From NCBI RefSeq assembly GCF_016728505.1, contig NZ_CP068159.1:1612001-1676000 (forward strand): a stretch of 64,000 bases of DNA, given 5' to 3'. Within the stretch, counting starts at the first letter, position 1. Each line of letters starts with the position of its first letter. The DNA is from Corynebacterium riegelii. Its GTDB lineage: Bacteria; Actinomycetota; Actinomycetes; Mycobacteriales; Mycobacteriaceae. Under the pieces are notes generated by a model that saw nothing but the letters and a program-made list of their open reading frames with translations, ran no database searches and had not been told where the DNA came from. The translations under genes and the position numbers were made by a program. Positions 4,810 through 50,644 of the stretch are shown here, piece by piece.

Positions 4810-5540
4810 TTGGAAACCTGACCGTCAGCGTGGTCATCCCGGCGCTCAACGAGGAAGCCACGGTGGCGCACGTTGCACAGGCGTGTTTGGCGTCGTGCGC
4901 CGATGAGGTCCTCGTGATCGATTCTGACTCCACTGACAACACCGCCGCGGAGGCGGCGCGGGTGGGGGCGCGTGTGGTGGGATGGCGTGGCGTCGATAAG
5001 CAAAAGCCCTGGCCCGGGAAAGGGGAGGCCCTGTGGCGCGGGGTGAAAGCCGCGCGCGGGGACGTGGTGGTGTTTGTGGATGCGGACGTGACCAACGTGG
5101 AGCCCCGGTGGGTGGACACACTGGCCGCCCCCTTTGCAGACCCCGCAATTCACCTGGTCAACGCCACCTACGAGCGGCTCGGCGCCGGCGGGCGCGTAAC
5201 CGAGCTGACCGCCAAACCGCTGCTGCGCACCTACTTCCCGCAGCTCGCCAGCCTTGACCAGCCGCTGGCGGGCGAATACGCCATCCGCAGAGAAACCGCC
5301 CTTCAGGTGCCGTTTGTTGCAGGTTATGGGGTAGAGATCGGGTTGCTTATCGACGTTTACGCCACCCACCCCAACGCCATCACCCAAGTGAATCTAGGCG
5401 AGCGCACCCACCGCAACCGGCCACTTGCTGAGCTCGGACCGATGGCCGACGTAGTCACCCGTACCGTCCTTGCGCGCGCCGGCGTGCTGCCGGAAGGGGC
5501 CGCGCCGCTCACACAGCGACCACCGTGGAATATGATGTAG
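4806..5540 (+). CDS. gpgS: Glucosyl-3-phosphoglycerate synthase
   Basis: GT-A glycosyltransferase (GT81) that transfers glucose from an NDP-glucose to 3-phosphoglycerate, the first step toward glucosylglycerate and methylglucose lipopolysaccharide-type molecules. Visible are VVIPALNEE (residues 9-17), the metal-binding DADV (92-95), LAGEYAIRRE and GYGVEIGLLID, and NLGERTHRNRPL, all shared with Rv1208. At 244 aa it is shorter than the mycobacterial enzyme (about 320). It starts with GTG overlapping the folP2 stop. Residues 62-68 (GVDKQKP) are encoded by an exact copy of the dispersed 20-bp repeat and fall in a loop just before the conserved PGKGEALW. Confidence 0.9.
   Translation: MIGNLTVSVVIPALNEEATVAHVAQACLASCADEVLVIDSDSTDNTAAEAARVGARVVGWRGVDKQKPWPGKGEALWRGVKAARGDVVVFVDADVTNVEPRWVDTLAAPFADPAIHLVNATYERLGAGGRVTELTAKPLLRTYFPQLASLDQPLAGEYAIRRETALQVPFVAGYGVEIGLLIDVYATHPNAITQVNLGERTHRNRPLAELGPMADVVTRTVLARAGVLPEGAAPLTQRPPWNMM
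4989..5008 (+). repeat. Dispersed 20-bp element, copy A (exact)
   Basis: Exact GGCGTCGATAAGCAAAAGCC inside gpgS, read in frame as GVDKQKP. The ends GGC/GCC can pair around a 14-nt loop. Confidence 0.85.
5531..5536 (+). promoter_or_regulatory. -10 box TATGAT before the DivIVA-like gene
   Basis: TATGAT 7 nt upstream of the ATG at 5544 and overlapping the gpgS 3' end, suggesting a leaderless transcript separate from gpgS. Confidence 0.45.
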
Positions 5541-5543
5541 CCC

Positions 5544-5915
5544 ATGCTTTCGTGGATCCTGCTGATTGTGGCTCTGGCGGTCTTTGCCCTGATGGGCATG
5601 TGGTTGTTCTCCGCCGTGTTTGGGCGCGGCGAGGCGCTACCGCCCATGGAGGATACCGCCGACGTGAAAGACGCCAACCGGACCGCCGTTGAAGAGGGCC
5701 GTTTTGACGACATCCAGCTGGAAGTTGTCCACCGCGGATACCGCATGGACCAGGTCGATGCGCTGCTTGCCCAGCTGACGGGTACCGAGCTGGCTATGGA
5801 GCCCGCAACAGCGCTGGCCCCCGAAGATGCGCCGGAGCGCGTACAATTGGGCGAAGAACTTCTAGTTAGCGAAGGAGAGCCTACCCATGGCAGCAATGAA
5901 ACCGCGCACCGGTAA
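5544..5915 (+). CDS. DivIVA-domain small membrane protein
   Basis: A 123-aa protein with one N-terminal transmembrane helix (about residues 3-25, LSWILLIVALAVFALMGMWL) followed by a short cytoplasmic part. RFDDIQLEVVHRGYRMDQVD (about 53-72) matches the DivIVA N-terminal fold, in which a hydrophobic residue pair touches the membrane and an aromatic-GY turn follows. The tail is variable and acidic. It sits 3 nt after gpgS, as in related genomes. The role is unknown; the domain suggests polar or septal localisation. Its last 29 nt overlap the next gene in another frame. Confidence 0.75.
   Translation: MLSWILLIVALAVFALMGMWLFSAVFGRGEALPPMEDTADVKDANRTAVEEGRFDDIQLEVVHRGYRMDQVDALLAQLTGTELAMEPATALAPEDAPERVQLGEELLVSEGEPTHGSNETAHR
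5842..5847 (+). promoter_or_regulatory. Possible -10 box TACAAT for the DUF3117 gene
   Basis: TACAAT inside the DivIVA-like coding region, about 40 nt before the ATG at 5887. That ATG has its own GAAGGAG ribosome site, so a leadered transcript is plausible. No clear -35 is visible. Confidence 0.3.
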
Positions 5916-6054
5916 CGGTCCGATGGAAGCAGTGGAAGAAAGCCGCAAGATTGTAATGCGTATCCCGTCCGACGGCGGTGGCCGTTTGGTTGTGGAGATG
6001 AGCAAGGAAGAGGCTGCCGAACTTGGGCAGCTGCTGCTTGACGCATCGAAGTAG
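5887..6054 (+). CDS. DUF3117 family small protein (55 aa)
   Basis: A 55-residue protein beginning MAAMKPRTGNGPMEAVEESR, with VMRIPSDGGGRLVVEMSKEE in the middle. This is the near-invariant actinobacterial DUF3117 pattern. The ATG is preceded by GAAGGAG at the right distance. Stop TAG at 6052-6054, then an intrinsic terminator. Function is unknown; the family is small, soluble and highly conserved next to the DivIVA/gpgS genes. Confidence 0.9.
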   Translation: MAAMKPRTGNGPMEAVEESRKIVMRIPSDGGGRLVVEMSKEEAAELGQLLLDASK

Positions 6055-6070
6055 CGCGATTATTCCCCTT

Positions 6071-6095
6071 CGCCCCGCCCCGCGGGGCGTTTTTT
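6071..6095 (+). terminator. Rho-independent terminator after the gpgS/DUF3117 group
   Basis: CGCCCCGC and GCGGGGCG form a perfect 8-bp stem with a CCC loop, followed directly by six T. Confidence 0.92.
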
Positions 6096-6104
6096 ATTGT
6101 GCGG

Positions 6105-6116: not shown

Positions 6117-6980
6117 ATGCTGAAAGACATCGTTGACGTGCTGGCTGACCCGGTGGATCGCACCCCATTGCGCGTGGAGGATGGCGGCGCCCGGTTGGTG
6201 TCGGAGTCCGGGCATTCGTATGACGTGGCTCGTCAAGGCTATGTCACGCTTGCTGGCGGCAAGGGCCTCAACCATGAGGGTGACTCGCTGGAGATGGTGC
6301 AGTCGCGTGAGGCGTTTTTGTCGCAGGGGTATTTCGCGCCGTTTGTGGAGGCCGTCACCGAGGCCGTGGAGCAGGTGCTGGGAGTCAGCGCTGCTGGCGT
6401 TGAAGAGCCGGTGATTCTGGAGGTCGGTGCCGGTACCGGTTACTACCTGGCGCACACGCTGGACACCGTTGAGGGGGCGCGTGGCGTGGGTCTGGACATT
6501 TCTGTGCCGGCCGCGAAGCACTTGGCTAAGTCGCACCCGCGAGTGGGTGCGGTGGTTGCGGATGTGTGGGAGGGCCTCCCGCTTCACGACGCCTCGGTGC
6601 ACGCCCTGACCGTCGTCTTCGCGCCCCGCAACCCGGCGGAGTTTGCGCGCGTGCTTGTAGACGGTGGCGAGGCCGTCATCCTCACCGCCCACCAAGGCCA
6701 CCTGGATGAGCTGCGTGAGCCGCTGGGTATTTTGGGCGTTGAAGGCGGCAAGCTGGAGCGCATGCTTGAGCAGGCGGAAGGCCACCTGGAGTTGGTGGGT
6801 GAGCCGCAGCTCATTGAGTTCCCGATGGAGTTGGAGCGCGCCGCGATCGCCGCCCAGGTGGGCATGAGCCCGTCGGCACGCCACCTGGATAAGGAAACGC
6901 TTGCAAGCCGTGTTGCGGCGCTGCCGGAGACGTTGCGGGTCACCGCGAAGGCGAACCTGGTTCACCTGCGCAAGTGCTAG
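6117..6980 (+). CDS. RlmA-like 23S rRNA guanine-N1 methyltransferase
   Basis: SAM-dependent methyltransferase of the RlmA/TlrB family. The N-terminal signature GHSYDVARQGYVTLA (about residues 37-51) and the SAM-binding EVGAGTGYYLAH (about 101-112) are clear. RlmA enzymes usually hold a zinc ion with CPxC plus C-x4-H at the N-terminus. Here the first pair reads DPVD and the second SESGH, so the cysteine ligands are gone. Target base (G745/G748 region) is inferred from family only. The ATG at 6117 is fixed by the -10 box 6 nt upstream. Its TAG stop shares the four bases CTAG with the stop of the convergent GH32-like gene. Confidence 0.8.
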   Translation: MLKDIVDVLADPVDRTPLRVEDGGARLVSESGHSYDVARQGYVTLAGGKGLNHEGDSLEMVQSREAFLSQGYFAPFVEAVTEAVEQVLGVSAAGVEEPVILEVGAGTGYYLAHTLDTVEGARGVGLDISVPAAKHLAKSHPRVGAVVADVWEGLPLHDASVHALTVVFAPRNPAEFARVLVDGGEAVILTAHQGHLDELREPLGILGVEGGKLERMLEQAEGHLELVGEPQLIEFPMELERAAIAAQVGMSPSARHLDKETLASRVAALPETLRVTAKANLVHLRKC

Positions 6981-8395
6981 AGCAGCGAGCTGTGGCCGCG
7001 GCGCCATTCGGAGTAGATCTCCGCATCGCCGCTTGTGCGTACCTTGATGCCGCTGGAGCCGTTTTCGGGCCAGAAGCGTGAGCTCATGGCTACGCTGCCG
7101 CCGCCGGCATAGACCTCCAGGGTGGAGCCGTCGACGATGACGGTGATGTTGTCCTCGTCATCGTCGTGAAGCGGGGCGGTCTTCGGATCCCCGTCAAAAC
7201 GATCAAGTTCGATGTGCTCGCCGGTGTGGCGGATGCGGGCGGCGGGCTCGCCGTTGCCGTCAATAACCTCAACGACAACCTCGGAACCGGCCGGAATATC
7301 GCACAGGCCCGTCCACAGCAGCGCACGCTGCGCCTCATCAACCGCATCCGGAAGCCCTGGGGCCGGCACCTGGTAAAGGTGGCCGTGCTGCAGCGTGATG
7401 CGCCTCGGCAACGTCAGCGCGTTGGCCCAGCCCTCCGCCTCCCAGTTGGGCTCAGCGGTGGGGTCGCCGGTGCGCCCCGCGTTGGTCATAAACCCGTAGA
7501 TGTAGGCGCGCTCGTACAGCTTGAACTCGTCTTCGGTGCCGCGCGGGTAGTTGGTGTTGCGCGGGCGTGTGAAGTCATGGCCAAAGTCGAAGCGCTGGCT
7601 GGGGGTGACTACGTGGAATTGGTTGCCCTCCAAACGTCCGATGATGTAGCTGGCGATGTCTTTGCCGTCTACTTCGGTGGTGATGAACAGTACGTCGTAA
7701 ATATCGCCGTCTACTTCGTCGCGCAGGCGCACCAGACGCGGGGCGACTAGGGAGCCGTCCATTTCAAACCCAGCATCACCGACGAACTCCAGCGGGCCGA
7801 TGAACTGCCAGGCGCGCCCGTCGTCGGAGCTCAGCACCACCGGCTGCGGGTTGTCGGAGGGGCCGGTGACAGCGAGCATGAGCCAGCCTTCGTGGCCTGC
7901 GTCGCGGTCGCTTAAGCGGCTCCAGCCAGGGATGACGCACGGGGAGCGGAAGTTGGAAAACTCGTCGGTGCTTTCCACCACCTTGCCTAGGCGTTGGACG
8001 GCGGTGGAGACCTCCACCGTGTCGTCTTCAAGATCGCTGCACAGCGCGTTCACATCATCAACGCGGGCCACCTGGACGGTGCTGCCGGCATCGGTGCGGG
8101 AGGTGAAGTAGATGTCAATGCCGTCGTCTTCCACATCGCCGCCGACAACGGCGCCTGCACGCAGGTGGCGTTCCCCACCGGCGGGGATGATCGCGTCGTT
8201 GCACTCGTACCAGCTAAACGGGTCGCCTTCGCTTGCGCTGTGGCCCCAGCGGCTCTGCCCGTCTGGGGTTGGGCGGTACTGGTAGAACATGTGCCACACG
8301 TGTTCGTTTTTCGCGCCGAGGCGGATAACACCAGCGGGTCCTTCGAGGATGCCTTCCTCGGCGGTGAGGTGCAGTTCGGGTCTAAACGTAGTCAT
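6977..8395 (-). CDS. GH32-like protein, probable inactive beta-fructosidase homologue
   Basis: A 472-aa five-bladed propeller plus C-terminal sandwich related to beta-fructosidases/levanases. Recognisable are FRPELHLTAEEG at the N-terminus, HMFYQYRP and WGHSASEGDPFSW, and the later FDFGHDFTRPR with YERAYIYGFM. Catalytic motifs are altered: the nucleophile block NDPNG reads LEGPAG, the FRDP transition-state Asp reads FRSP, and the acid/base ECP reads FEMDG. It follows glgA by 17 nt with an AGAGG ribosome site, so it is very likely co-transcribed with glycogen synthase. Inference: a sugar-binding or regulatory protein rather than a hydrolase. No signal peptide. Confidence 0.75.
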   Translation of the reverse strand: MTTFRPELHLTAEEGILEGPAGVIRLGAKNEHVWHMFYQYRPTPDGQSRWGHSASEGDPFSWYECNDAIIPAGGERHLRAGAVVGGDVEDDGIDIYFTSRTDAGSTVQVARVDDVNALCSDLEDDTVEVSTAVQRLGKVVESTDEFSNFRSPCVIPGWSRLSDRDAGHEGWLMLAVTGPSDNPQPVVLSSDDGRAWQFIGPLEFVGDAGFEMDGSLVAPRLVRLRDEVDGDIYDVLFITTEVDGKDIASYIIGRLEGNQFHVVTPSQRFDFGHDFTRPRNTNYPRGTEDEFKLYERAYIYGFMTNAGRTGDPTAEPNWEAEGWANALTLPRRITLQHGHLYQVPAPGLPDAVDEAQRALLWTGLCDIPAGSEVVVEVIDGNGEPAARIRHTGEHIELDRFDGDPKTAPLHDDDEDNITVIVDGSTLEVYAGGGSVAMSSRFWPENGSSGIKVRTSGDAEIYSEWRRGHSSLL

Positions 8396-8412: not shown

Positions 8413-9573
8413 TTAGATCAGCTTCTTGTAAATATCAACGGTTTGTTGCGCAATGGTGGCCCAGGAAAAATCGGCCACCGCGCGTTCGCGGCCAGCCTGG
8501 CCCATGCGTGCGGCAGTGTCCGCGTCCGCAACAACGGCGTTCACGGCCTCGGCCAGGTTGCGCTCGAAGGTTTCGGGATCCGATTCGTCATAGTCCACCA
8601 GCGTGCCGGTCACGCCGTCCACAACAACCTCGGGGATACCACCCACGCGTGAGGCCACCACGGCGGTGCCACACGCCATTGCCTCAAGGTTGACAATGCC
8701 CAGCGGCTCATAGATAGACGGGCAGACAAACACGTCAGATGCGGCGTAGACCTCGCGGATCTTATCGGCCGGCAGCATCTCTTCCACCCAGAACACACCA
8801 TCGCGCTCAGCGCGCAGCTTGTCCACAAGACCCTGGGTTTCGGCTGCGATCTCCGGCGTATCGGGTGCGCCGGCGCAGAGGATGAGTTGCACGGAAGCGT
8901 CGAAAAGCTGGGCTGCCTTGAGCAAGTGGGGGACACCCTTCTGGCGGGTGATGCGGCCAACAAACGACACGATGGGCCGCGTCGGGTCAACCCCGAGCTC
9001 CTCGGTAATGGTGCCCTTCGTGGGGTACCACAGCTCAGTGTCAATGCCGTTGAGCACCACATGCACCTTGTCCGGGTCAATGCTGGGGTAGGCGCGCAAA
9101 ATGTTGTCTTTCATGCCGGAAGACACGGCGATGACAGCATCCGCGTTCTCCATGGCGTTTTTCTCGCTCCAGGAAGACACGTTGTAGCCGCCGCCGAGCT
9201 GCTCACGCTTCCACGGGCGGTCCGGCTCCAAAGAGTGGGCGGTGGCCACGTGAGGAATGTCATACATCAGCCCGGTCAGGTGGCCACCCAGGCCCGCGTA
9301 CCAGGTGTGGGAGTGGACCACATCAAGGTTGTTCGCACTGTGCGCCATGCGCAGGCCGGTGGACAGCGTTTTCAACGCACCGTTGGCGTCTTCCAGCGCC
9401 GGATCGACGCCGTGGACGTACACATTTGCCTCGTCCCGCGGCGCGCCCATGCAGTGCACATCCACGTCCACACCGTCGATGCCTCGCATGAAGCGCGTGA
9501 GCTCTGTGACGTGGACGCCGGCACCGCCGTAGATTTCCGGCGGATACTCTTTTGTCATCATTCCCACTCTCAT
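8413..9573 (-). CDS. glgA: Glycogen synthase / alpha-maltose-1-phosphate synthase (GT4)
   Basis: Actinobacterial GlgA (GlgM-like) GT4 glycosyltransferase using ADP-glucose for alpha-1,4-glucan or maltose-1-phosphate synthesis. It starts [20 protein letters not shown], the exact family N-terminus. The GT-B donor site is seen as [12 protein letters not shown] (about 195-206) and [19 protein letters not shown] (about 283-301). I start it at 9573 (386 aa) because TAGGGT lies 7 nt upstream and the family begins here; a longer reading from 9600 is not supported. Divergent from glgC, sharing a 90-bp control region. Confidence 0.93.
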
Positions 9574-10881: not shown

Positions 10882-11537
10882 CGCTTCGTAATTAAGGTGA
10901 GCCCGCCGTCGAGCGGCAGGCGGGCCACCAGCGCGCCGTGGTCGGCGGCGAGCGTTTCCACGTAGTCGTCGGCGGTGCGTGCGGCGTCGGTGTCGCGGTC
11001 GCGGCGGGAGGGGTCGGCCAACGTGCCGTCTAGAAGCGAATCAGCGACAACGATCATCCCGCCCTGGCTGAGCAGCGGCCAGGCAAGCTCAAGCACTGCC
11101 TGCAGCTCGCGCGGTGCAACATCCAGGTAGATCAGCTGGTAGGCCTGTGCGGCCAGGCGGCCCATGACATCCAGCGGGCGCGCGGTGAGGAAGCGAGTGC
11201 GCGACGCACCGTGTCCGGCAAGCTTAAACGCGTCCTTCGCGCCTGCCTGCAGCGCCGCATCCGGCTCAATGCAGGTCAGCGCGGCCTTCTCCGGCAAGCC
11301 CGCCAGCAGGTGCAGGCCAACCACACCCGCAGCCGGGGTTACGGCCACCGCACCCTGGGTGCCGGTCGTGCCAGCCAAGGTTTGCAGCAAGGAGCCCACG
11401 ACTATCGACGGCGCACGCAACCCATTTTCATCCGCCTCCACATGGGCGCGATGCAGCGCATCGGGTGCCTCGGCGAGACGGTCGGTGATGTAAGAGGTCA
11501 TCTGGGTAAACGCTGTTGCAGTCACGATTTGAAGCAT
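10878..11537 (-). CDS. SAM-dependent O-methyltransferase (Rv1220c-like)
   Basis: A 219-aa class I methyltransferase related to caffeoyl-CoA-type O-methyltransferases and to Rv1220c, which also lies beside sigE. The first SAM motif is weak ([17 protein letters not shown]), followed by [10 protein letters not shown] with the acidic ribose ligand, [11 protein letters not shown] (metal Asp region) and [14 protein letters not shown] start at 11537 ([13 protein letters not shown]); an internal ATG giving MTSYITDRL also fits. Divergent from sigE with a 46-bp gap. The substrate is unknown. Confidence 0.78.
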
Positions 11538-12192: not shown

Positions 12193-12524
12193 CTAGGCGG
12201 TTTTCTTCCACGGAGCATTTAGGCCCTGAGGCGGTTGCGGCGTTTGTAGACGGGGAGTTGTCGGCTTGCGCCACCCGTCGCGCCCAGGACCACATTGCGC
12301 AGTGCCAGGAGTGTCATGAGGAGGTGGTGGCGCAGCGTGGGGCGTCTCAACGCATGCGCTTTTTGCGTACCGACGAGCACGTGAAAGCCCCCACCTCCCT
12401 CATCGAGAAGCTTGCCAACATGTGTGATGACGACGAACTGCATGACGCGGCCGAAGCTAAGCGCAGCCCGCGCGAGAAGCTTGCTGACGCGCTGCAACGC
12501 TTCCGTCAGGGTAGAGTGACATAG
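12189..12524 (+). CDS. Zinc-binding anti-sigma factor for SigE (CseE/RseA)
   Basis: Small (111 aa) soluble anti-sigma factor. It contains the ZAS motif [11 protein letters not shown] (His-x3-Cys-x2-Cys, about residues 35-45), which binds zinc and responds to oxidative or envelope stress, and no transmembrane helix. The ATG overlaps the sigE TGA by four bases, so the pair is translationally coupled and sigma and anti-sigma are made in step. The C-terminus ends against the tatB GTG start without a gap. Confidence 0.9.
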
Positions 12525-12944: not shown

Positions 12945-14081
12945 TTACTTCACCTGGGGGTTGAGGCTTTTGCCAGCCAGGGAGTCGCGGCGTACCTTCA
13001 GCTTGCTTGCAATCTCATGAATTGCCTTGGCGGCGGGGGAGTCCGGCTCGGAGATGACTACCGGGTTGCCGTCGTCACCGTGCTGGCGAAGCTTCGGATC
13101 CAAAGGAACAGAGCCCAAAAGCTCCACTGCAGAATCCGTCAGCTGCGTCAGGCGCTCGGCCACGTGCTGGCCGCCGCCTTCGCCGAAGATGTTGATCACG
13201 GAGCCGTCGTCAAGCAGAAGCCCCGACATGTTCTCCACAACACCCGCGATCTTCTGATCGGTCTGCTGGGCGATGGTGCCGGCGCGCTCCGCAACCTCGG
13301 CTGCTGCAGCCTGCGGGGTGGTCACAATGATCAGCTCCGCATTCGGCACGAGCTGCGCAACAGTAATTGCAACATCGCCAGTTCCCGGCGGCAGATCCAT
13401 AAAGAGCACATCCAGATCGCCCCAGTAGACGTCGCCTAAGAACTGCTGGATAGCGCGGGTAAGCATCGGGCCGCGCCACACAACCGGCGCATTGCCCTCC
13501 ACAAACTGACCGATGGAAATGTGGCGCACGCCGTGGGAAATCGGCGGCATCAGCATCTCATCCACCACCGTCGGGGTCTGACCCACAGAGCCCATGAGGC
13601 CTGGGATGGAGTGGCCGTAAATATCAGCATCCACAATGCCCACGCTCAACCCCTGCTGCGCAAGGGCGGTGGCCAGATTCACCGTCATGGAGCTTTTACC
13701 CACGCCCCCCTTGCCGGAGGCGACCGCGAACACGCGGGTGCGCGAATTCGGGTCAGCAAACGGGATAGCCGGGCCAGTCTGCTCACCGCGCAGCTTGGTC
13801 GCTAGCTCGCGGCGCTGCTCGTCGCTCATCGTGTCCATAGACACGCTCACGTTGCCCACACCCTCAAGCTCTTCAAGCACGGCGCGGGTGTTGCGCTCAA
13901 TCGTGTCGCGCATTGGGCAACCAGCAATAGTCAGGTAAATGACTACCGACACGTCATTGCCGGCGATGTCAATGGATTTGACCATGCCAAGCTCAGTGAT
14001 CGGCTTGCCAATTTCCGGGTCGTCCACACGCGAAAGCGCTTCAGTAACAAGTGCAGTGGTGATCGAATTCGTTGTAGCCAT
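12945..14081 (-). CDS. mrp: Mrp/ApbC family iron-sulfur cluster carrier ATPase
   Basis: P-loop ATPase that carries or inserts Fe-S clusters. An N-terminal MIP18-like domain (about 1-90, VTEALSRVDDPEIGKPITEL and GCPMRDTIE) precedes the deviant Walker A, VASGKGGVGKSSMTVNLATA (about 112-131), then DADIYGHSIPG and MDLPPGTGDVA. The C-terminal CxxC that bridges clusters in E. coli Mrp is absent (VVENMSGLLLDDGSVINIFG), as in the mycobacterial homologue beside tatB. ATG 14081 (378 aa) lies shortly after a TATACT box. Convergent with tatB. Confidence 0.92.
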   Translation of the reverse strand: MATTNSITTALVTEALSRVDDPEIGKPITELGMVKSIDIAGNDVSVVIYLTIAGCPMRDTIERNTRAVLEELEGVGNVSVSMDTMSDEQRRELATKLRGEQTGPAIPFADPNSRTRVFAVASGKGGVGKSSMTVNLATALAQQGLSVGIVDADIYGHSIPGLMGSVGQTPTVVDEMLMPPISHGVRHISIGQFVEGNAPVVWRGPMLTRAIQQFLGDVYWGDLDVLFMDLPPGTGDVAITVAQLVPNAELIIVTTPQAAAAEVAERAGTIAQQTDQKIAGVVENMSGLLLDDGSVINIFGEGGGQHVAERLTQLTDSAVELLGSVPLDPKLRQHGDDGNPVVISEPDSPAAKAIHEIASKLKVRRDSLAGKSLNPQVK

Positions 14082-14639: not shown

Positions 14640-15389
14640 ATGGGCAAGGCAGGCGTAAAACGTGTAATTGCGGCAGCGACGGTGGTTGCCGCGGCGCTGG
14701 GCACCTCAGGGTGTGCGTCCACGCAGGGGCTGAAAGAGCTGCGGTCCATCTGGACCAAGCAAGGAACCCCGGTGGCTATCGGTATTAACCCGCACTCATC
14801 AGAGCAAGTGGTGTTGGGGGAGATCTATAGCCAGATCTTTGACGCGATGGGCTACGCGGCTGGCGTATCCAGCTTGAGCGCCAGTGAGACACAAGACGCG
14901 CTGACCCTGCTTCGGAACCAGCCTGTAGATCTTGTGATCACCTGCACCGGCACCCTGCTTGAGTCGCAAGATCCCAACAAGGCTGAAGAACTCAAGGCAA
15001 GCGACCTCAGCGGGCCTGAGCTTTCGGACGCCACCTACGACGCCATGGTGGCCACCTTCCCCTTCAACATGAGCACGGTGAACCCGTCGCCGGCAGAAGG
15101 CTGCGCGCCGGTGGAGGAGATGCCAGGGGAGGCGCCGGAGGACGCATTGGAGGGGGAGGCGCCTGTGGAGGAGCCTCGGGGATTGCCGCAAAACATCGTG
15201 CCGGTGTTCCTAGACGGCAAGTTTGACCACGGAACGATCACACGCATCAACTTCATCACTCGTGTGATGGCTACCGATGAGATTCAGGAGATCGCCGCCG
15301 AGGTGGATAACGGTGCCCCTGTGAGCCAGGCGGTGTCTGCGTGGATCGCGGAATACGCCGGCATCATGGGCGCTGTCCCAGAAGAGTAA
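14640..15389 (+). CDS. Lipoprotein with substrate-binding-protein-like fold
   Basis: A 249-aa exported lipoprotein. A basic N-terminus and hydrophobic core end in the lipobox LGTSGC (Cys 26). The part after it, SSEQVVLGEIYSQIFDAMGY and PVDLVITCTGTLLESQDP, resembles the opening of glycine-betaine/osmoprotectant-binding proteins, but it lacks the rest of that fold and contains a Glu/Pro-rich insertion (about 155-182, EEMPGEAPEDALEGEAPVEE). No permease or ATPase lies nearby, so transport is doubtful. Follows the membrane-protein gene by 4 nt and ends before a strong terminator. Confidence 0.65.
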   Translation: MGKAGVKRVIAAATVVAAALGTSGCASTQGLKELRSIWTKQGTPVAIGINPHSSEQVVLGEIYSQIFDAMGYAAGVSSLSASETQDALTLLRNQPVDLVITCTGTLLESQDPNKAEELKASDLSGPELSDATYDAMVATFPFNMSTVNPSPAEGCAPVEEMPGEAPEDALEGEAPVEEPRGLPQNIVPVFLDGKFDHGTITRINFITRVMATDEIQEIAAEVDNGAPVSQAVSAWIAEYAGIMGAVPEE

Positions 15390-15471: not shown

Positions 15472-18400
15472 TTATTTGGCAAACGCCTCGTCGATAAGCT
15501 GCTGCTCTTCCTGCTGGTGGATCTTGCCCACGCCGGTTGCAGTGGTGGACTGCGCACGGCGGGAGACACGAACCATCTCAGGCATATCCGGGATCAGGTT
15601 GCGCAGGTGCTCGTTGTAGAACGGCCACGGACCCTGGTTAGCCGGCTCATCCTGCACGAAGCGGATCTCCTTGGCGTTCGGGTAGTTCGCAAACGCATCC
15701 TTGAGGCGGTTGAACGGGATCGGGTGCAGCATTTCAAGGCGGATGATCGCAACGTCATCACGACCGTCCTTCTCCTTGCGCTTAGCAAGCTCGTAGTAGA
15801 TCTTGCCGGAGCACAGCAGGATGGTGGTGACCTTGTCAGTGTCGGCGATCTTCTTGTTGCCGCGCTCCACAAACGTCGGATCATCAATCACGGACTGGAA
15901 GCGGTTGACCTCGGTGAAGTCCGCAGGCTGGGACACAGCTGCCTTGTTGCGCAGCATGGACTTCGGCGTGAATACCACCAGCGGACGCTTCATCTCGCCG
16001 AGTGCCTGGCGGCGCAGCAGGTGGAAGTGGTTCGCCGGAGTAGACGGCTGTGCAATGGTCATGGAGCCCTCAGCAACCAGCTGCAGGTAGCGCTCGATGC
16101 GTGCGGAGGAGTGGTCCGGACCCTGGCCCTCGTAGCCGTGCGGCAGGAGCATGATCAGGCTGGACAGCTCACCCCACTTGGTCTCGCCGGAGGAGATGTA
16201 CTCATCAATGATGGTCTGCGCACCGTTCGCGAAGTCACCGAACTGCGCTTCCCACGCCACCACAGCGTCGTGGTCCGCAATGGTGTAGCCGTACTCAAAG
16301 CCAAGGCCTGCAAACTCGGTCAGGGCGGAGTTGTACACCTCGAAGCGGCCACCGTTGCCGGCCTCAACGGCCGCGTGGTCGATCGGGTTGAACGCTTCGC
16401 CGTTCTCCGGGTTGTACAGCACTGCGTGGCGCTGGGTGAAGGTACCGCGCTGGCTGTCCTCACCGGCGAGGCGGACAAAGCGGCCTTCCTTGGCCAGGGA
16501 ACCGAAGGCGAGGAGTTCGCCCCAGCCCCAGTCAATGTCACCGTTTTCGAAGGAGCCGCCACGGTTCTTCAGCACGTTCTTCAGGCGCTTGTTCGGCGTG
16601 AAGTCCTCCGGCAGGTCAGCGTAGGTATCGGCCAGCTTCTTGAAGGTCTCTTCCGTGATGTTGGTGTCCAGACCACGGGTGAGCTCCTGAGAATCCGTAA
16701 TACCGGTCTGCTCGCTCGGTGCACCCTCGGAAGCCTTCACATCAGAGAACACTGCGTCCAGCTGATCGTGGAAGTCCTGTGCCGCAATCTCCGCCTCTTC
16801 CTGGGAGATGTCGCCGCGGCCAATGAGGTCATTGGTGTAGCGGGTACGCACGGACGGGTGGGAGTCAATGCGGTCGTACATGACCGGCTGGGTCACGGTT
16901 GGGTCATCAGCCTCGTTGTGGCCGCGCAGGCGGTAGCAGATCAGGTCAATGAAGACGTCCTTGCCAAACTCGCGGCGGTACTCGGTTGCCAGCTGGGCAA
17001 CCCATGCGGCTGCCTCCGGGTCGTCACCATTGACGTGGAAGACCGGGCAGTCGAAGCCCTTGGCCAGGTCGGTGGCGTAGTAGGAGGAACGGCCGGAGTC
17101 CGGGGTGGTGGTGAAGCCGATCTGGTTGTTCACAATCACATGCACCGTGCCGCCGACGGAGTAGCCCGGCAGGCGAGACAGGTTCAGGGTCTCCTGGACC
17201 ACGCCCAGACCAGCGAAGGATGCGTCACCGTGGAGCATGATCGGCATGACCGGGAAGTCCTCGCGGCCTTCCTCAGCCTTGAGCAGGTCGGTCTTGGCGC
17301 GTGCCATACCCACCAGCACCGGATCCACAGCCTCAAGGTGGGACGGGTTAGCGGCCAGGGAGACCTTGATCTCACCGTCGCCAAACATCTGGATGTGCTC
17401 GCCCTCAAAGCCCAGGTGGTACTTCACGTCACCGGAGCCACCCTGCTGAGCAGCCTTGAAGTTGCCCTCGAACTCGTTGAAGATCGTCGCAACCGGCTTG
17501 CCAACAATGTTGAACAGCACGTTCAGGCGGCCACGGTGCGGCATGCCAATGACAACCTCGTCCAGGCCCTGGCCGGCGGCGGTGTCAATCGCAGCGTCCA
17601 TAAGCGGAATCAGGGTCTCCGCACCCTCAAGGGAGAAGCGCTTCTGGCCCAGGTACTTGGTCTGCAGGAAGTTCTCAAAAGCCTCAGCGGCGTTGAGCTT
17701 CTGCAGGATGTACTTCTGCTCCGCGTTGGTCGGCTTCGGCATGCCGGCCTCCATGCGGTCACGCAGCCACTCACGCTCATCACGGTCCATCACGTGTGCG
17801 TACTCAGCACCAACGTGCAGGGTGTAGGCGGCGCGCAGGCGAGACAGCACCTCGCGCAGCGTCATGCGCTCCTTGCCGCCGAAACCACCCACGTGGAAGG
17901 TGCGGTCCAGATCCCACAGGGTCAGGCCGTGGGACTCCAGCAACAGGTCGCGGGAATCCGGCTTCGGCAGGCCCGGCTGGTGCCAGCGCAGCGGGTTGGT
18001 GTCCGCGATCAGGTGGCCACGAGAGCGGTATGCCTCGATAAGCTGCATGACACGGGTGTCCTTGTTAATGCCGGTATCCGGCAGGTCCTGTGCCCAGCGC
18101 AGCGGGGAGTAGGGGATTTCGAGGGATTCGAAGATTTCGTCCCAAAACTTATCGTCAATAAGCAGCTGCGAAATGTCACGCAGGAACTCACCGGACTCTG
18201 CACCCTGGATGACACGGTGGTCATAGGTGGAGGTCAGGGTGACCAGCTTGCCCACGCCAAGCTCAGCCAGGCGGTCCTCGGAGGCGCCTGCGAACTCTGC
18301 CGGGTAATCCATCGCACCAACGCCAACGATGGTGCCCTGGCCCTTGGTCAGACGCGGGATGGAGTGGCGGGTACCAATGCCGCCCGGGTTGGTCAGCTGA

Positions 18401-30124: not shown

Positions 30125-30127
30125 ACC

Positions 30128-36251: not shown

Positions 36252-36257
36252 GGGGGC

Positions 36258-36263
36258 AGTATA
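36258..36263 (-). promoter_or_regulatory. -10 box TATACT for the frameshifted gene
   Basis: TATACT 6 nt before ATG 36251, so the broken gene still has a good leaderless promoter. Confidence 0.45.
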
Positions 36264-36274
36264 GGGGGCAACGT

Positions 36275-36294
36275 GGCGTCGATAAGCAAAAGCC
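36275..36294 (+). repeat. Dispersed 20-bp element, copy D (exact, intergenic)
   Basis: Exact GGCGTCGATAAGCAAAAGCC in the 45-bp gap between the ldh stop and the promoter of the frameshifted gene. Confidence 0.85.
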
Positions 36295-36296
36295 CC

Positions 36297-39398: not shown

Positions 39399-40358
39399 TT
39401 ACGGCAGCCGGTGGATCTCATCAAACGGCACAGCCACAACTTCGCCGTTGCCTACTGAGGCCGGCTCACCACTCGGGCTGCTGTCACCGCAGCTGAGTTT
39501 GCCGTTTGCACCGATGTACTCCTCGCCCTCGTAGAAGTAGCGGCCGGTACACCCCCAACCCTCAGGGGAAGTCCAAAATGCTGCCTGGCCTTCAGTCTCA
39601 CCAAAGTGCAACGCCAAGCGGTAGCCCTCCATCACATCCATGGCGGTGTCACAGTTGGTGCCGTCTTCTACGGCTATGACTGCTAAAGCATCCCCAGACG
39701 GCGCGTGCAACACCCCGCACTGCGTGCCAACATCCACGGGTTCTTTGGATTGGGCGATGCGATCTTCTGGGTCATCATCAAACTGGATCACGGAGTTGTG
39801 CACCTCCACGCCCTGGCCGTCACGCTCCACACGAAAACCACCGTTGTGCAGGTGCGTAAACGTGGTGCCATAAATGGTTACGCGCTGGCCAGGTTCAAGC
39901 CCCGGTGGTGGGGAAGCGAATCCCTGCGAGCCGGGGGAGTGACCAGCCTGGAACTCGCCCAAGTCATAGTCAAAGTCAAACACGTTTGAATACGTTGCAT
40001 CTGGCCACCCGCCGTTGAACTGCATCTCGGGCAGGGGATAGCGAAACATCACCTGACACGACGTGAGTAACTGGCCCGGGTAGTCCGGGTCCAACGATTC
40101 GTCTTTGACAAAGCAGCCGGCAACACCAGAGTTGCCACCCACCACAGCGCCATACCCGTTAGCAAACAGCTCCGGGTCAACATCTACGTACCCGTCATCC
40201 TCTTGAGCTGCGGTTATCTCTTCGTCCGGCGCCTGAACGTCTTCGATGGGGACGAAGGTGGGAGGGGGAGTCGACGCGGCGTCGTTACGCAGGGCACTGG
40301 GCACGCACCCAGCGAGCAGAAGGGTGGCAGCGAGCAGGGGGACGGTACAACGTTTCAC
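39399..40358 (-). CDS. Secreted lipoprotein, hypothetical
   Basis: 319-aa lipoprotein. A basic start MKRCTVPLLAATLLLAGC gives a short signal and lipobox LLAGC (Cys 18). The mature part has a Thr/Pro-rich stretch, then segments such as LEPGQRVTIYGTTFTHLHNG and FRVERDGQGVEVHNS that parallel the beta-strand block of the two ERNPEDF genes nearby, suggesting distant kinship. Several Cys (AGCF, TSCQ, TQCG, TNCD, WGCTG, LSCGD) suggest disulphides. GTG start 40358 is supported by TACTCT 7 nt upstream; a long reading extending to 42167 is only a shadow of the helicase gene. Function unknown. Confidence 0.72.
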   Translation of the reverse strand: MKRCTVPLLAATLLLAGCVPSALRNDAASTPPPTFVPIEDVQAPDEEITAAQEDDGYVDVDPELFANGYGAVVGGNSGVAGCFVKDESLDPDYPGQLLTSCQVMFRYPLPEMQFNGGWPDATYSNVFDFDYDLGEFQAGHSPGSQGFASPPPGLEPGQRVTIYGTTFTHLHNGGFRVERDGQGVEVHNSVIQFDDDPEDRIAQSKEPVDVGTQCGVLHAPSGDALAVIAVEDGTNCDTAMDVMEGYRLALHFGETEGQAAFWTSPEGWGCTGRYFYEGEEYIGANGKLSCGDSSPSGEPASVGNGEVVAVPFDEIHRLP

Positions 40359-40400: not shown

Positions 40401-42623
40401 ATGAGCATTTCCGAAAACGCCACCGGCGGCGAGAATGAGCCGGATGTAAACATGTCGGAAAATCAGGAAAACCCGCAGGATGTCGCAGCCGATGCTGCAC
40501 GTGAGGACACCAGGGATGCGGGAGTTTCTGAGGATACCGGCGCTGCGGAGACCGCAGCCAATGCCGAAACTAATGAGACTGAGCAGATTTTGAGCCTTGC
40601 AGACGTAGTCGGGGTCGAGCCCCACGAACTTGTGCAAGAGCCTGAGGCTTCTGAAGAGACTGAGACTGAAAAGCCGGAGAACGGGTTTGAAAACTTGGGC
40701 CTGCCGGAAGACGTTGTGGACGCGGTTAAGCGCGTTGGCTTCGAGCAGCCCTCTCCAATCCAGGCGCAGACTATTCCACACCTGATGGAAGGCCGCGACG
40801 TTGTCGGCCTCGCGCAGACGGGTACCGGTAAGACCGCAGCGTTCGCGCTGCCGGTGCTGAGCCAGATTGACCCGAAGCAGCGCCACCCGCAGGCACTGGT
40901 GCTTGCGCCGACGCGTGAGCTGGCACTGCAGGTGTCGGACTCCTTCCAATCTTTCGCCGACCACCTTGGCGGCATCCAGATCCTGCCGATCTACGGCGGC
41001 CAGGCCTACGGCATTCAGCTGTCCGGTCTGCGTCGTGGCGCCCAGGTGATCGTGGGTACCCCGGGCCGTGTGATCGACCACCTGGAGAAGGGCTCGCTGG
41101 ACATTTCCAACCTGCGCTTCCTGGTGCTGGATGAGGCCGATGAGATGCTGAACATGGGCTTCCAGGAAGACGTTGAGCGCATCCTGGAAGACACCCCGGA
41201 CAGCAAGCAGGTTGCACTGTTTTCCGCGACGATGCCGGGCGCGATCCGCCGCATCTCCAAGCAGTACCTGGACGATCCGGTAGAGGTGACGGTCAAGAGC
41301 GAAACCCGCACTAACACCAACATCACCCAGCGTTACCTGTTCACCGCGCACCGCAACAAGCTTGACGCGATCACCCGCATCCTTGAGGTGACCGAGTTTG
41401 AGGCGATGATCGTATTCGTTCGCACCAAGAACGAAACCGAGGAGCTGGCCGAGAAGCTGCGCGCCCGCGGGTTCTCCGCCGCAGCTATCAACGGTGACAT
41501 TCCTCAGCAGCAGCGTGAGCGCACGGTTGATCAGCTTCGCGACGGTCGCTTGGACATCCTCGTGGCCACCGACGTTGCCGCCCGTGGCCTGGATGTGGAG
41601 CGCATCTCGCACGTGCTCAACTACGACATCCCGAACGACACTGAGTCTTACGTCCACCGCATCGGCCGCACCGGCCGCGCGGGACGTACCGGTGAGGCAA
41701 TCCTGTTTGTCACCCCGCGTGAGCGCCGCATGCTGCGCTCCATTGAGCGTGTGACCAACGCAACAATCGAAGAGATGGATTTGCCGACGGTGGATGAGGT
41801 CAACGAGAGCCGCAAGACCAAGTTCATGGACTCCATCACGGAGTCCCTGGAGGCCTCTGACCTGCAGGTGTTCAAGACCATGGTCCGCGAGTACTCCGCA
41901 GTGAACAACATTCCGATGGATGACATCGCTGCAGCCCTGGCTACCCAGGCACAGGCGGGCGATGAGTTCTTGATGAAGGAGCCGCCGCGCGACAAGCGCG
42001 ACCGCCGCGACCGTGATCGTTTTGACCGTGATGATCGCCGTGACCGTGGCGGGCGTCGTGACCGTGACCGCTTCGATCGTGATGATCGCCGCGGTGGACG
42101 TGGTCGCTTTGCCAACGACAGCGAGAACTTTGACACCTACCGTCTTGACGTGGGCAAGCGCCAGCACGTGCGCCCAGGTGCCATCGTTGGCGCCCTGGCA
42201 AACGAGGGTGGCTTGAGCTCCAAGGATTTCGGCCGCATCACCATTGGTGGTGACTTCACCCTGGTGGAGCTGCCGAAGAACCTAGACAATGCCGTGCTTG
42301 ACCGTCTGACGGATACGCGTATCTCCGGCCAGCTGATCAACATCCAGCGTGACCACGGTGCGCCGCCGCGTGACCGTGGTGGTTACGGTGGTCGTGGCCG
42401 TGGCGGCTGGGACCGTGATGACCGCGGTGGCCGTGGCTATGGCCGCGACCGCAACCGTGGCGGCTGGGACCGTGACCGTGATGATCGCCGTGACCGCGGT
42501 GGTCGCCGTGACCGTGACCGTTTTGATCGTGATGATCGCCGCGGTGGTCGTGGTGGTTGGGACCGTGACCGTGATGATCGTGGCGGCCGTGGAGGCTTCC
42601 GCGGAGGCCGCGACCGCGACTAA
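40401..42623 (+). CDS. deaD: DEAD-box RNA helicase (DeaD/CsdA type)
   Basis: 740-aa ATP-dependent RNA helicase for ribosome assembly and mRNA turnover. The N-terminal ~90 residues are acidic, then Q motif (FEQPSPIQAQTIP), motif I AQTGTGKTA, Ib TPGR, II DEAD (VLDEADEMLNMGF, about 240), III FSATMP, V ATDVAARGLD and VI HRIGRTGRAGRTGEA. A DbpA-type RNA-binding domain (RLDVGKRQHVRPGAIVGALA, about 575-650) is flanked by two Arg/Asp/Gly tracts of repeated FDRDDRR and DRGGRRDR units. I favour ATG 40401 over 40392. Confidence 0.95.
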   Translation: MSISENATGGENEPDVNMSENQENPQDVAADAAREDTRDAGVSEDTGAAETAANAETNETEQILSLADVVGVEPHELVQEPEASEETETEKPENGFENLGLPEDVVDAVKRVGFEQPSPIQAQTIPHLMEGRDVVGLAQTGTGKTAAFALPVLSQIDPKQRHPQALVLAPTRELALQVSDSFQSFADHLGGIQILPIYGGQAYGIQLSGLRRGAQVIVGTPGRVIDHLEKGSLDISNLRFLVLDEADEMLNMGFQEDVERILEDTPDSKQVALFSATMPGAIRRISKQYLDDPVEVTVKSETRTNTNITQRYLFTAHRNKLDAITRILEVTEFEAMIVFVRTKNETEELAEKLRARGFSAAAINGDIPQQQRERTVDQLRDGRLDILVATDVAARGLDVERISHVLNYDIPNDTESYVHRIGRTGRAGRTGEAILFVTPRERRMLRSIERVTNATIEEMDLPTVDEVNESRKTKFMDSITESLEASDLQVFKTMVREYSAVNNIPMDDIAAALATQAQAGDEFLMKEPPRDKRDRRDRDRFDRDDRRDRGGRRDRDRFDRDDRRGGRGRFANDSENFDTYRLDVGKRQHVRPGAIVGALANEGGLSSKDFGRITIGGDFTLVELPKNLDNAVLDRLTDTRISGQLINIQRDHGAPPRDRGGYGGRGRGGWDRDDRGGRGYGRDRNRGGWDRDRDDRRDRGGRRDRDRFDRDDRRGGRGGWDRDRDDRGGRGGFRGGRDRD
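41998..42622 (+). repeat. Intragenic Arg-Asp-Gly repeats in the helicase gene
   Basis: Two tracts, about 41998-42105 and 42364-42620, made of near-identical units such as gaccgtgaccgcttcgatcg and gtgatgatcgccg. They encode FDRDDRR and GGRRDR repeats: disordered RNA-binding tails, prone to slippage. Confidence 0.75.
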
Positions 42624-46080: not shown

Positions 46081-46392
46081 ATGCCTAGGAAGGTTTATTC
46101 GGATCAGTTCAAGCGCGACGCGGTCGCGATGTACGAGAACGATCCACACATCTCGTTCAATGCCGCAGCCGCAGACTTAGGGATCAACCGCACCACGCTT
46201 CGCTCGTGGGTTGACAAGTACGGCACCGGCGCAAAGACCAAGAGTTCAGCGGATGTACGTGCCAATCGCGCCAAGCAGCTCACAGATGCAGAACAGATAC
46301 GCCAATTGCAGCGCGAAATCGCTCAGCTGAAAGAAGAACGCGATATCTTGCGCAAGGCGGCCAAATATTTTATGGAAGAGACAAACTGGTGA
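46081..46392 (+). CDS. IS3-family transposase OrfA
   Basis: 103-aa DNA-binding subunit. Helix-turn-helix FNAAAADLGINRTTLRSWVD (about 24-43) recognises the IS ends, followed by a leucine-zipper-like coiled coil (TDAEQIRQLQREIAQLKEER, about 68-87) for dimerisation. Its stop overlaps the orfB GTG as GTGA. No A-rich slippery heptamer is evident, so OrfB may be made by coupling rather than by frameshifting. Confidence 0.93.
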   Translation: MPRKVYSDQFKRDAVAMYENDPHISFNAAAADLGINRTTLRSWVDKYGTGAKTKSSADVRANRAKQLTDAEQIRQLQREIAQLKEERDILRKAAKYFMEETNW

Positions 46393-47273: not shown

Positions 47274-47341
47274 CCATGTGCTAAAGTAAGCCCCGTAATT
47301 TCACCATTGATGGTGTCTACTTTTCGGGGGTCGGGCCCGCA

Positions 47342-49298: not shown

Positions 49299-49366
49299 TG
49301 GTCCTCGCCGAAGTTGGAGGCCTGGTTTCTGACCCGGTGGCTGGAGGGGCTCCTCAAGGTAAAAGT

Positions 49367-49433
49367 CGGATAGCAAACATCGGATAGGTGCCAAATTGGG
49401 CCAAAATGGGCCTTATCCGATGTTTGCTATCCG
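49367..49433. repeat. 20-bp perfect inverted repeat at the right edge of the catabolic island
   Basis: CGGATAGCAAACATCGGATA (49367-49386) and its exact reverse complement (49414-49433) flank a 27-nt loop. A further partial unit, ATCCGATGTTTG (49429-49440), follows in tandem. No T-run. Confidence 0.9.
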
Positions 49434-49538
49434 ATGTTTGTGATTGGCCGGGGCAAAAGGGCAAAAGAAAACGCCGGAAGGCGCAGCGGTGAAGCTGGCC
49501 AGCCGGCGTAAAGCGCGAAGCGTAAGAACAGCGAAGCG

Positions 49539-50024
49539 CTAGAACAGATCAGCAGGCAGGAACATCAGAACCAGGACCAGGATCCACATCAGGTTGAAAA
49601 TGCCGGCACCGGCAGACGCCTTTGCCTTGCACTTTTCAAAGTCACCGGTGACATCAGACGGATCGGCATCAGCCGGGTCGAGAGCGCCCAGGGAACCCAT
49701 CATCTTGCGCTGGTGTGGAATCACCATGAAAAACAGCAGCGCCCACGCGATGACGGAGAGCACGATCGCGGTGTGGAGCCAGTAGTTGGTGCTGTAGGTG
49801 TTCCAATCAAAGGCCATGACAACACCACCGAGCAGCGGTACCAGTGCGGAGAGCATGCCGTAGGTTGTCGAAACCTTGTGAAGAACGGCGGCACGGCCGG
49901 TGGCCTCTTCGCCGCCAGCCTTCGCGCGGGCAGCTTCAGCCGGGAACATCGATGTGGCGACGACAACCGGGCCGAGAAGCACGATCGCCGCGGCGACGTG
50001 CAGGAAGGTAAAGAGAGTATTCAT
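49539..50024 (-). CDS. Four-helix integral membrane protein
   Basis: 161-aa protein with four hydrophobic segments (LFTFLHVAAAIVLLGPVVVA, MLSALVPLLGGVVMAF, LHTAIVLSVIAWALLFFMVI, IFNLMWILVLVLMFLPAD) and a conserved-looking FLHV histidine near the start. It resembles small DUF2269-like membrane proteins; function unknown. ATG 50024 chosen; TAAGGT 8 nt upstream. Same direction as the nuclease gene, 11 nt apart. Confidence 0.7.
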   Translation of the reverse strand: MNTLFTFLHVAAAIVLLGPVVVATSMFPAEAARAKAGGEEATGRAAVLHKVSTTYGMLSALVPLLGGVVMAFDWNTYSTNYWLHTAIVLSVIAWALLFFMVIPHQRKMMGSLGALDPADADPSDVTGDFEKCKAKASAGAGIFNLMWILVLVLMFLPADLF

Positions 50025-50035
50025 GGGCAATTACC

Positions 50036-50644
50036 TTACAGGGAACGTGCAGAAAGTACGCCTCGGACGCCGGAGCAGGCGCCTCGCATAGCCTTGCGGT
50101 CCTCGTGCGACAGCGCCAAACCGTAGGTGGAGGCCACGGCTGACAGTTGTTGTGCGTAAGGGCAACGCGAGCGCCAGGCGGGTGGCATCCACTCACCAGG
50201 CAGCTTGTCGGACTTGGATTGGTTGGCGCTTCGAGATGTCACCACTAGGTTCAACGGGTCGTTCGCAAACGCAAGGCGTTTTTCCGCAGGCCACGTGGCA
50301 GCACCCATGTCCCACGCAGCGGCAAGGGGAAAGAGGTGATCAAGTTCAACGTCGGCTGGCAGGATCGCGGAACCGGTATAGGGATCACGGATAGGGGCGA
50401 CGTCCCACTGTTGATAGGGCATGTCACAGGGCTGGGCCCAGGCGCTGGCTAGGGCAACGTCGCGGCTCGTACACGCACCCCCGGAGCCGGGGGCGGTGGC
50501 CCAGCTTGCGCCGAAGGCTTGTTGGCGGTTGTAGTTAAGCGTGGTGGTGCGGGGGGACAACGGGGCGTCGATAAGCAAAAGCCCCGTTGGGAACGGGGCG
50601 AGAGCAAGAGTGCAAACAATGAGGATTCGAAGGAAAAGCTTCAT
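50036..50644 (-). CDS. Secreted HNH-type nuclease (DUF1524/GmrSD C-terminal family)
   Basis: 202-aa exported protein. The N-terminus MKLFLRILIVCTLALAPFPT is a signal peptide. The nuclease core reads ILPADVELDHLFPLAAAWDM with the DH of the beta-beta-alpha metal fold, then FANDPLNLVVTSRSANQSKS, typical of extracellular corynebacterial HNH proteins. Bases 50564-50583, an exact copy of the dispersed repeat on the opposite strand, encode GLLLIDA right at the end of the signal peptide. On the gene strand the bases just before it form a terminator-like hairpin. Likely co-transcribed with putP (6-nt gap). Confidence 0.82.
   Translation of the reverse strand: MKLFLRILIVCTLALAPFPTGLLLIDAPLSPRTTTLNYNRQQAFGASWATAPGSGGACTSRDVALASAWAQPCDMPYQQWDVAPIRDPYTGSAILPADVELDHLFPLAAAWDMGAATWPAEKRLAFANDPLNLVVTSRSANQSKSDKLPGEWMPPAWRSRCPYAQQLSAVASTYGLALSHEDRKAMRGACSGVRGVLSARSL
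50559..50599 (-). terminator. Terminator-like, mutually exclusive hairpins inside the nuclease gene
   Basis: On the gene strand GCCCCGTT-CCC-AACGGGGC is a perfect 8-bp hairpin followed by TTTTGCTT. The AACGGGGC arm can instead pair with a second GCCCCGTT beyond the repeat loop (50559-50566). Looks like an attenuator within the signal-peptide codons. Confidence 0.5.
50564..50583 (+). repeat. Dispersed 20-bp element, copy E (exact)
   Basis: Exact GGCGTCGATAAGCAAAAGCC. Flanking AACG/CGTT extends the stem to 8 bp around the conserved 14-nt loop. Confidence 0.85.

Follow-up and report, generated by a model that had tools for sequence, protein, structure and literature searches.

A dispersed, polar DNA element of Corynebacterium riegelii, probably a DNA uptake sequence

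Introduction

Why does one 20-bp sequence recur, inside and between unrelated genes, along a stretch of the Corynebacterium riegelii chromosome? The stretch analyzed here, called the window, is 64 kb long and supplies the coordinates used below; it belongs to a genome of 2,519,232 bp in one contig (G000). A first-pass annotation of the window had drawn attention to the 20-mer and had proposed either a family of miniature insertions or a functional tag (for uptake, for domain organization or as an RNA element). The 20-mer turns out to belong to a polar element of about 55 bp, in which 27 nt rich in G and poor in C precede the core RNCGTCGATAAGCAA. On our analysis, this element is probably a DNA uptake sequence with uptake specificity as its function. 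This reading, and with it the uptake version of the functional tag, is favored because the copy number of the element, its scatter without polarity, its growth by substitution, its mutually exclusive dialects and its poverty in three of four prophage regions resemble those of uptake sequences.

Anatomy and abundance of the element

Exact copies of the 20-mer are present, as first noted, at 4989(+), 21181(-), 36275(+) and 50564(+), and near copies with three mismatches at 2831(+), 20037(+) and 31274(-); another near copy, placed at 2038, in fact starts at 2037(-) and has two mismatches. Their number had been judged far above chance, which was an understatement. The window holds eight copies at up to three mismatches, compared with a mean of 0.01 and a maximum of one in 100 dinucleotide shuffles, and the whole genome holds 97 forward and 91 reverse copies (188), compared with none on either strand for the reversed pattern.

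Alignment of 35 copies (one of which, L004, stood reversed in that alignment) gave the core GGCGTCGATAAGCAAAAGCCCC and, upstream on the same strand, a G/T-rich tract. A matrix spanning -30 to +24 was seeded with 30 correctly oriented copies and refined over a 464-kb sample, made up of the window and 20 spaced 20-kb stretches of the same genome (21 stretches). It finds 310 sites at a score of 12 and 235 at a score of 16, compared with three and one in the reversed sequence. At a score of 14, the threshold used below, there are 268 sites, and 35 of these, rather than eight, lie in the window; all 21 stretches have sites, at densities of 1.5 to 10.5 per 10 kb, and extrapolation from the sample gives about 1,450 sites per genome. 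The matrix carries about 28 bits of information over 54 positions, of which the core contributes 18 and the tract 8. Among the 10-mers of the sample, CGTCGATAAG and GTCGATAAGC are the most over-represented by z-score, the highest being that of CGTCGATAAG (60 copies vs 0.48 expected).

Because circularity was to be avoided, the tract was also measured at 54 sites picked by the exact 11-mer of the core alone, without the matrix; this 11-mer has 285 copies in the genome. Between -33 and -7, G stands at 0.50 and C at 0.13, compared with 0.33 and 0.29 at -60 to -34. Around the sites found by the matrix, base composition deviates between about -33 and -3 and is normal beyond these limits, and conservation ends at about -33 and +22. 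The first-pass annotation had missed this tract, which sits on the opposite strand to the run it described, 5' of GGCGTC at about -33 to -7; the GGGGC that had been noted corresponds only to a weakly conserved CCCC at +18 to +21. A G-quadruplex was rejected, since the pattern of four runs of at least three Gs fits just 10 of the 268 sites.

The elements of the window are listed below with their full-matrix scores; those scoring 14.4 to 15.5 are called weak.

4956..5010, + strand: element, sense in glycosyltransferase-2 gene 4806-5540; exact 20-mer, score 35.5
21179..21233, - strand: element, sense in fused ABC transporter gene 19338-22916; exact 20-mer, score 44.6
36242..36296, + strand: element just past the stop of lactate/malate dehydrogenase gene 36297-37289(-); exact 20-mer, score 38.3
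50531..50585, + strand: element, antisense, in the N-terminal signal-peptide-like part of open reading frame (ORF) 50036-50644(-); exact 20-mer, score 39.6
2035..2089, - strand: element, antisense at the start of M20 peptidase gene 2033-3151(+); 2 mismatches, score 45.8
31272..31326, - strand: element, antisense in ABC ATPase gene 30781-31968(+); 3 mismatches, score 41.5
20004..20058, + strand: element, antisense in ABC transporter gene 19338-22916; 3 mismatches, score 38.8
2798..2852, + strand: weak element, sense in M20 peptidase gene 2033-3151(+); 3 mismatches, score 14.9
5336..5390, - strand: element, antisense in glycosyltransferase gene 4806-5540; score 38.3
13170..13224, + strand: element, antisense in Mrp/NUBPL-type NTPase gene 12945-14093(-); score 36.5
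21393..21447, + strand: element, score 33.4
6572..6626, - strand: element, score 33.0
62768..62822, - strand: element, score 31.3
7127..7181, + strand: element, score 30.9
12356..12410, - strand: element, score 30.4
1153..1207, + strand: element, score 26.3
54294..54348, + strand: element, score 26.0
54771..54825, - strand: element, score 25.8
8863..8917, + strand: element, score 25.7
4395..4449, - strand: element, score 25.0
6644..6698, - strand: element, score 25.0
10992..11046, + strand: element, score 23.1
55984..56038, + strand: element, score 22.8
76..130, + strand: element, score 22.5
24584..24638, - strand: element, score 22.2
40245..40299, + strand: element, score 22.2
3836..3890, - strand: element, score 21.2
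15011..15065, - strand: element, score 20.9
17560..17614, + strand: element, score 19.6
41525..41579, - strand: element, score 19.3
7988..8042, + strand: weak element, score 15.5
12308..12362, + strand: weak element, score 15.2
62405..62459, + strand: weak element, score 14.8
7223..7277, + strand: weak element, score 14.7
56409..56463, - strand: weak element, score 14.4

ORF 50036-50644(-), which bears an element in its N-terminal part, is absent from our gene calls and is supported as a gene by its match to Pfam GmrSD_C. Its small product begins like a signal peptide, contains a nuclease domain of the GmrSD_C/HNH kind and is possibly a surface nuclease.

Placement in genes and along the chromosome

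By our own gene calls, which predict a coding fraction of 0.83 and missed at least one real ORF (50036-50644), 163 of the 268 sites are antisense, 73 are sense and 32 are intergenic or at a gene edge, with 88% within genes. The preferred frames reported at first hold over this larger set: 158 of the 163 antisense copies lie in one frame, LLIDA/LLDDA, and the sense copies are read mainly as GVDKQK (29 of 73) or ASxSK (41 of 73). Such a preference for one orientation and frame in genes (163 antisense vs 73 sense) is a trait of uptake sequences. Sense copies are spread roughly evenly along gene length; antisense copies are over-represented between 60% and 80% of gene length (53 of 163).

Along the chromosome, spacing is random (coefficient of variation 1.02, as for random placement). 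Both strands carry copies (97 and 91), and replication polarity is absent, as is typical of uptake sequences: strand bias about the origin had been suggested as a check, and no leading/lagging bias was found for any assumed origin with an opposite terminus (maximum imbalance 20 of 188, p 0.73). The largest gap between strong copies measures 146.6 kb (G000:C1 1209049-1355614), with a random 95% limit of 107.8 kb; five stretches sampled in it or at its edge hold 7, 7, 11, 5 and 16 weaker copies.

Distribution and dialects

A count across related genomes had also been proposed. The 20-mer matches at least once in 204 of 242 Corynebacterium genomes, with up to 193 copies (G020), and controls reach 0-2. 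Among 53 Corynebacterium genomes drawn, 34 have at least 20 exact copies of the 11-mer (maximum 529, in G229) and 19 have fewer. The first-pass annotation had held that a genome count near chance, or the same residues in distant genera, would speak against it; neither was found: the count in this genome is far above chance, and across 348 genomes from 30 other genera in the family the 11-mer reaches at most 7 copies, not above the reversed control. Within this one family, which the search covered, the core is confined to Corynebacterium. One 20-kb stretch of C. glaucum, a non-pathogenic species, is dense in elements.

A second dialect, CATCGGCAAGC, was first found in G001 and then counted in all 19 species poor in dialect 1. 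Four of these are rich in it (G001 with 340 copies, G144 with 333, G107 with 296 and G102 with 172) and hold just 1-8 copies of the dialect-1 word CGTCGATAAGC. Three further genomes (G145, G151 and G175), chosen for TadA match scores similar to that of G001 and counted for dialect 2 alone, have 332-344 copies of CATCGGCAAGC, which brings the dialect-2 genomes to seven (172-344 copies); conversely, eight dialect-1 genomes have 3-14 copies. A third word, ATGACGYCGCG, is present in G012 (L083-L087), and its complement, CGCGRCGTCAWYAA, lines up with the core. A weaker word, GTGGCGTCGA, was seen in G018, and no clear word in the 80-100 kb searched of G043, G011, G007 and G021. Tad-locus proteins of 19 genomes were placed on a midpoint-rooted tree. 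The dialect-2 genomes cluster together there (support 0.81 with G107 included), and 11 of 12 dialect-1 genomes split off from the rest (0.998), the placement of G034 having a support of just 0.21. The dialects follow this tree and differ between related species, as those of uptake sequences do.

Foreign DNA

Scarcity in foreign DNA is a further trait of uptake sequences. A phage portal gene was found in 4 of 26 motif-rich genomes, and 160 kb around the portals hold 12 sites at score 14 compared with 44 in 160 kb of control from the same contigs (23 vs 75 at score 10), with stretches set around portals rather than at prophage ends, arbitrary control places and the matrix of G000. Three of the four regions are poor (portal vs control: 1 vs 7 in G234, 1 vs 20 in G020 and 4 vs 10 in G040).

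In the window, a NaeI-type restriction endonuclease gene adjoins a C5-cytosine methylase gene at 33513-35431(-), in DNA of lower GC content; these restriction-modification genes (33.5-35.4 kb) hold no element at score 14. A DUF3100 gene at 45370-48021(+) is split by an insertion sequence with an HTH_21/rve transposase (46389-47273), and the surrounding 41.6-50.5 kb, part of which is low in GC, likewise hold no element at that score.

Competence machinery

The genome encodes competence genes, as would be expected of a species with an uptake sequence, although this trait is not discriminating. The genes comEA (227 amino acids, HHH_3) and comEC (539 amino acids) are adjacent and intact, and an intact tad operon at about 856-861 kb comprises a TadA-type ATPase, two T2SSF-like proteins (one of which scores below the Pfam cut-off), a DUF4244 protein and two small ORFs. 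The latter have no Pfam match, and we call them pilin-like from their position and hydrophobic start. Across the genus, comEC is present in 241 of 242 genomes and a PF00437 ATPase in 239 of 242 (235 above the cut-off), and both are useless as predictors of the motif, being near universal. The layout is shared by all 19 tad loci that were compared, although the last gene of the G043 locus is unmatched and an ORF of similar length takes its place. This layout and the near-universal machinery neither prove nor refute uptake. Candidate genes for a DNA receptor are the small pilin-like genes at L120:14004-14578. The last of them (L120 14273-14578) bears an element itself (LEHCLLIDGHV).

The element as a probable uptake sequence

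In the proposed mechanism, uptake would begin outside the cell, where a protein of the Tad pilus/ComEA machinery that binds DNA would recognize the core in its double-stranded form. Conspecific fragments would be favored in this way, and one strand would be passed through ComEC. Motif-bearing DNA would be taken up and recombined more often, such that copies made by point mutation would spread and be kept. This molecular drive would explain the substitutions within genes, the dialects and the scarcity in foreign DNA. The G-rich tract may aid strand opening during uptake, or the loading of RecA onto the imported strand. More tentatively, the element could represent a third, independently evolved uptake-sequence system, the first in Gram-positive (mycolate) bacteria, with a bipartite design in which a Tad/ComEA-read core and a RecA-seeding G-rich strand couple kin recognition to recombination, and in which dialect switches gate gene flow among Corynebacterium.

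Two kinds of uptake sequence are known for comparison, the DNA uptake sequence (DUS) of Neisseriaceae and the uptake signal sequence (USS) of Pasteurellaceae, the two Gram-negative families from which such sequences are best known. Corynebacterium, by contrast, is a Gram-positive genus with a mycolate envelope. The element is like DUS, which occurs in thousands of copies with dialects that follow phylogeny and a short common part (PMC3630211), in its many copies, its species dialects and its preferred orientation in reading frames; known uptake sequences prefer one orientation in reading frames and lack an orientation bias in the genome (PMC2346458). It differs from DUS in its unrelated sequence and in its length, about 55 bp with a G-rich polar tract, DUS being about 13 nt (PMC12616744). 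With USS it shares a core flanked by a less conserved tract and the absence of genome orientation bias (PMC12616744, PMC2346458), but the tracts of USS are AT-rich and lie downstream of a 9-nt core (PMC12616744), whereas here a G-rich tract lies upstream. A receptor, PpdA/ComN, has been predicted for USS, for which co-variation between dialect and orthologous proteins has also been analyzed (PMC12616744); the Corynebacterium element has candidates alone. Closer in phylogeny, Micrococcus luteus is an actinobacterium in which tadA genes (TadA ATPases) and comEA/comEC serve transformation, and in the part of that paper drawn on here an uptake sequence is not mentioned (PMC6667448).

Several observations weigh against an uptake function. 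Machinery and motif do not co-vary in presence, because comEC and the ATPase are near universal and occur also in the species without a clear motif (G043, G011, G007 and G021). The search for a receptor was negative: in size and order, the small pilin-like genes look alike whether or not the species is rich in the motif. Fourteen of the 19 dialect-1-poor species, G012 among them, are also poor in CATCGGCAAGC (0-12 copies), and G156 is intermediate with 33 copies. The G012 dialect lacks the G tract, and in dialect 2 the tract is weaker (G 0.45 and C 0.22 vs 0.38 and 0.32, n=12); the passages on DUS and USS used here describe no long tract rich in G, and USS has AT-rich tracts (PMC12616744). The prophage of G123, identified by a weak portal hit, is not depleted (6 vs 7). 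Finally, among the open-licence PMC papers listed, none was seen from its title or the start of its abstract to report natural transformation in Corynebacterium.

The same papers, judged likewise, gave no report of an uptake sequence in Corynebacterium, and of seven open-licence PMC papers that contain one of four core 11-mers, none concerns the genus by title. A 2013 paper describes the requirement for an uptake sequence as unique to Neisseria and Pasteurellaceae (PMC3630211). The kind of sequence is known; as far as searched, this sequence, its phylum and its bipartite G-rich architecture are new. If the reading is true, an unrelated bipartite motif with mutually exclusive dialects in Actinobacteria would mean that such systems evolved again; Corynebacterium species would be or have been naturally transformable, and kin-biased gene transfer would be directly testable.

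Less likely readings: recombination site or chromosome organization

Chief among the alternatives is a Chi-like recombination hot spot, which we consider unlikely. A helicase-nuclease would read the single-stranded core and load RecA on the G/T-rich tract directly 5' of it. The element resembles the Chi of RecBCD/AddAB in being polar, G/T-rich and chromosome-wide, the tract sits where RecA would be loaded after Chi, and the genome has two AddAB/AdnAB-like helicase-nuclease pairs, at G000:C1 1234.8-1241.7 kb and 1281.5-1287.8 kb (L163, L164); one pair is AddAB/RecB-like, and the other, UvrD/AddA-like, we take for AdnAB. Chi is usually leading-strand biased, and Chi sites and FtsK-orienting polar sequences (KOPS) have polarity along the replichore; the element has no replication polarity, and a replication-polar motif of the KOPS/Chi type was rejected on this ground. 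Dialects that swap within one genus are also unlike Chi. The AddB-like subunit of the first pair occurs patchily across the genus (found in 4 of 26 genomes, one of these distant): a survey that covered this subunit found it in just 3 of 12 motif-rich genomes, and not in G229, which has the most copies of the genomes counted. AddAB was rejected as the reader because the subunit was not found in the other 9 of the 12. RecA does prefer TGG repeats (PMC3763553), in line with the tract, but the matrix holds about 28 bits over 54 positions, which greatly exceeds the 8 nt of Chi in Escherichia coli (PMC7641324). If the element were a recombination site instead, no Chi analogue that we know of would approach it in length.

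A site for a chromosome-organizing or nucleoid protein, kept by selection chromosome-wide, seems less likely again. It would agree with the presence of copies in 20 of 20 spaced 20-kb stretches and with the poverty of three of four prophage regions, but not readily with random spacing and the lack of polarity, and dialect exclusion between relatives would need very many sites to co-evolve without drive.

A signal in DNA rather than in protein or RNA

The preferred reading frames might point to a shared peptide motif (LLIDA/GVDKQK), or the element to a signal in RNA, for example a terminator or a rut site, but both are very improbable. Copies are also intergenic, and lie in several frames and both orientations. 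At sites chosen by the core, wobble columns read on the element strand have G:C = 162:22 in 25 antisense copies and 132:7 in 21 sense copies, compared with a background of 0.37:0.37 at third positions in the genes of the sample. The same DNA strand is therefore G-rich in either gene direction, which argues that the signal is neither protein nor RNA. This bears out the view that the copies do not reflect shared protein ancestry and does not support the RNA element suggested with it, since the G-rich strand is unchanged by the direction of transcription of the host gene. Most sites are lost on synonymous-codon shuffling, in which proteins and intergenic DNA were kept (268 sites fall to a mean of 97 over 10 shuffles). 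On these grounds, peptide and RNA motifs were both rejected.

In coding copies, the G tract has an apparent 3-nt periodicity that coincides with wobble positions. Among copies that are intergenic or at a gene edge, the periodicity was not seen in the seven selected by the core without the matrix, and was seen in the 32 selected by the matrix (G 0.61 vs 0.41 and 0.47), which had itself been trained on coding copies. We interpret this periodicity, on small numbers, as a codon filter. An excess of CTT codons over the core was dropped as evidence because the matrix that picks the sites itself demands CTT. An estimated thousand-odd sites per genome bend codon choice, and occasionally protein sequence, to a demand at the level of DNA.

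Origin by substitution

Orthologues were compared at 16 of the 19 sites in the 1-15.5 kb part of the window, against seven relatives (L051-L057: C. sp. HMSC29G08, C. glaucum, C. urinipleomorphum, C. stercoris and three further strains; 104 segments). Among 77 element-free segments, 65 are ungapped at the place of the element and 12 have gaps of 1-4 columns; the 27 element-bearing segments are all gap-free. None of these gaps amounts to an insertion of 7 residues, and the miniature insertions first proposed are therefore not supported. A miniature mobile insertion (of the miniature inverted-repeat transposable element or repetitive extragenic palindromic kind), which the many scattered near-identical copies on both strands could have suggested, is hardly credible and was rejected, with no insertion and no extra DNA relative to empty sites in the 104 segments and with sequence conservation that stops beyond about -33 and +22.

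At the sites compared, the element instead arises by substitution, a trait of uptake sequences; USS arises by substitution in genes. In the glycosyltransferase (4806-5540), GVDKQKP aligns ungapped with DVDPREP, EIDPREP and DIDPREP of three relatives, three more relatives align with one gap column, and the nearest relative carries the element. In the Mrp/NUBPL-type NTPase (12945-14093, - strand), LDDG of the window and of three element-bearing relatives stands in place of MPDG in four element-free relatives; here a DNA motif has bent the protein.

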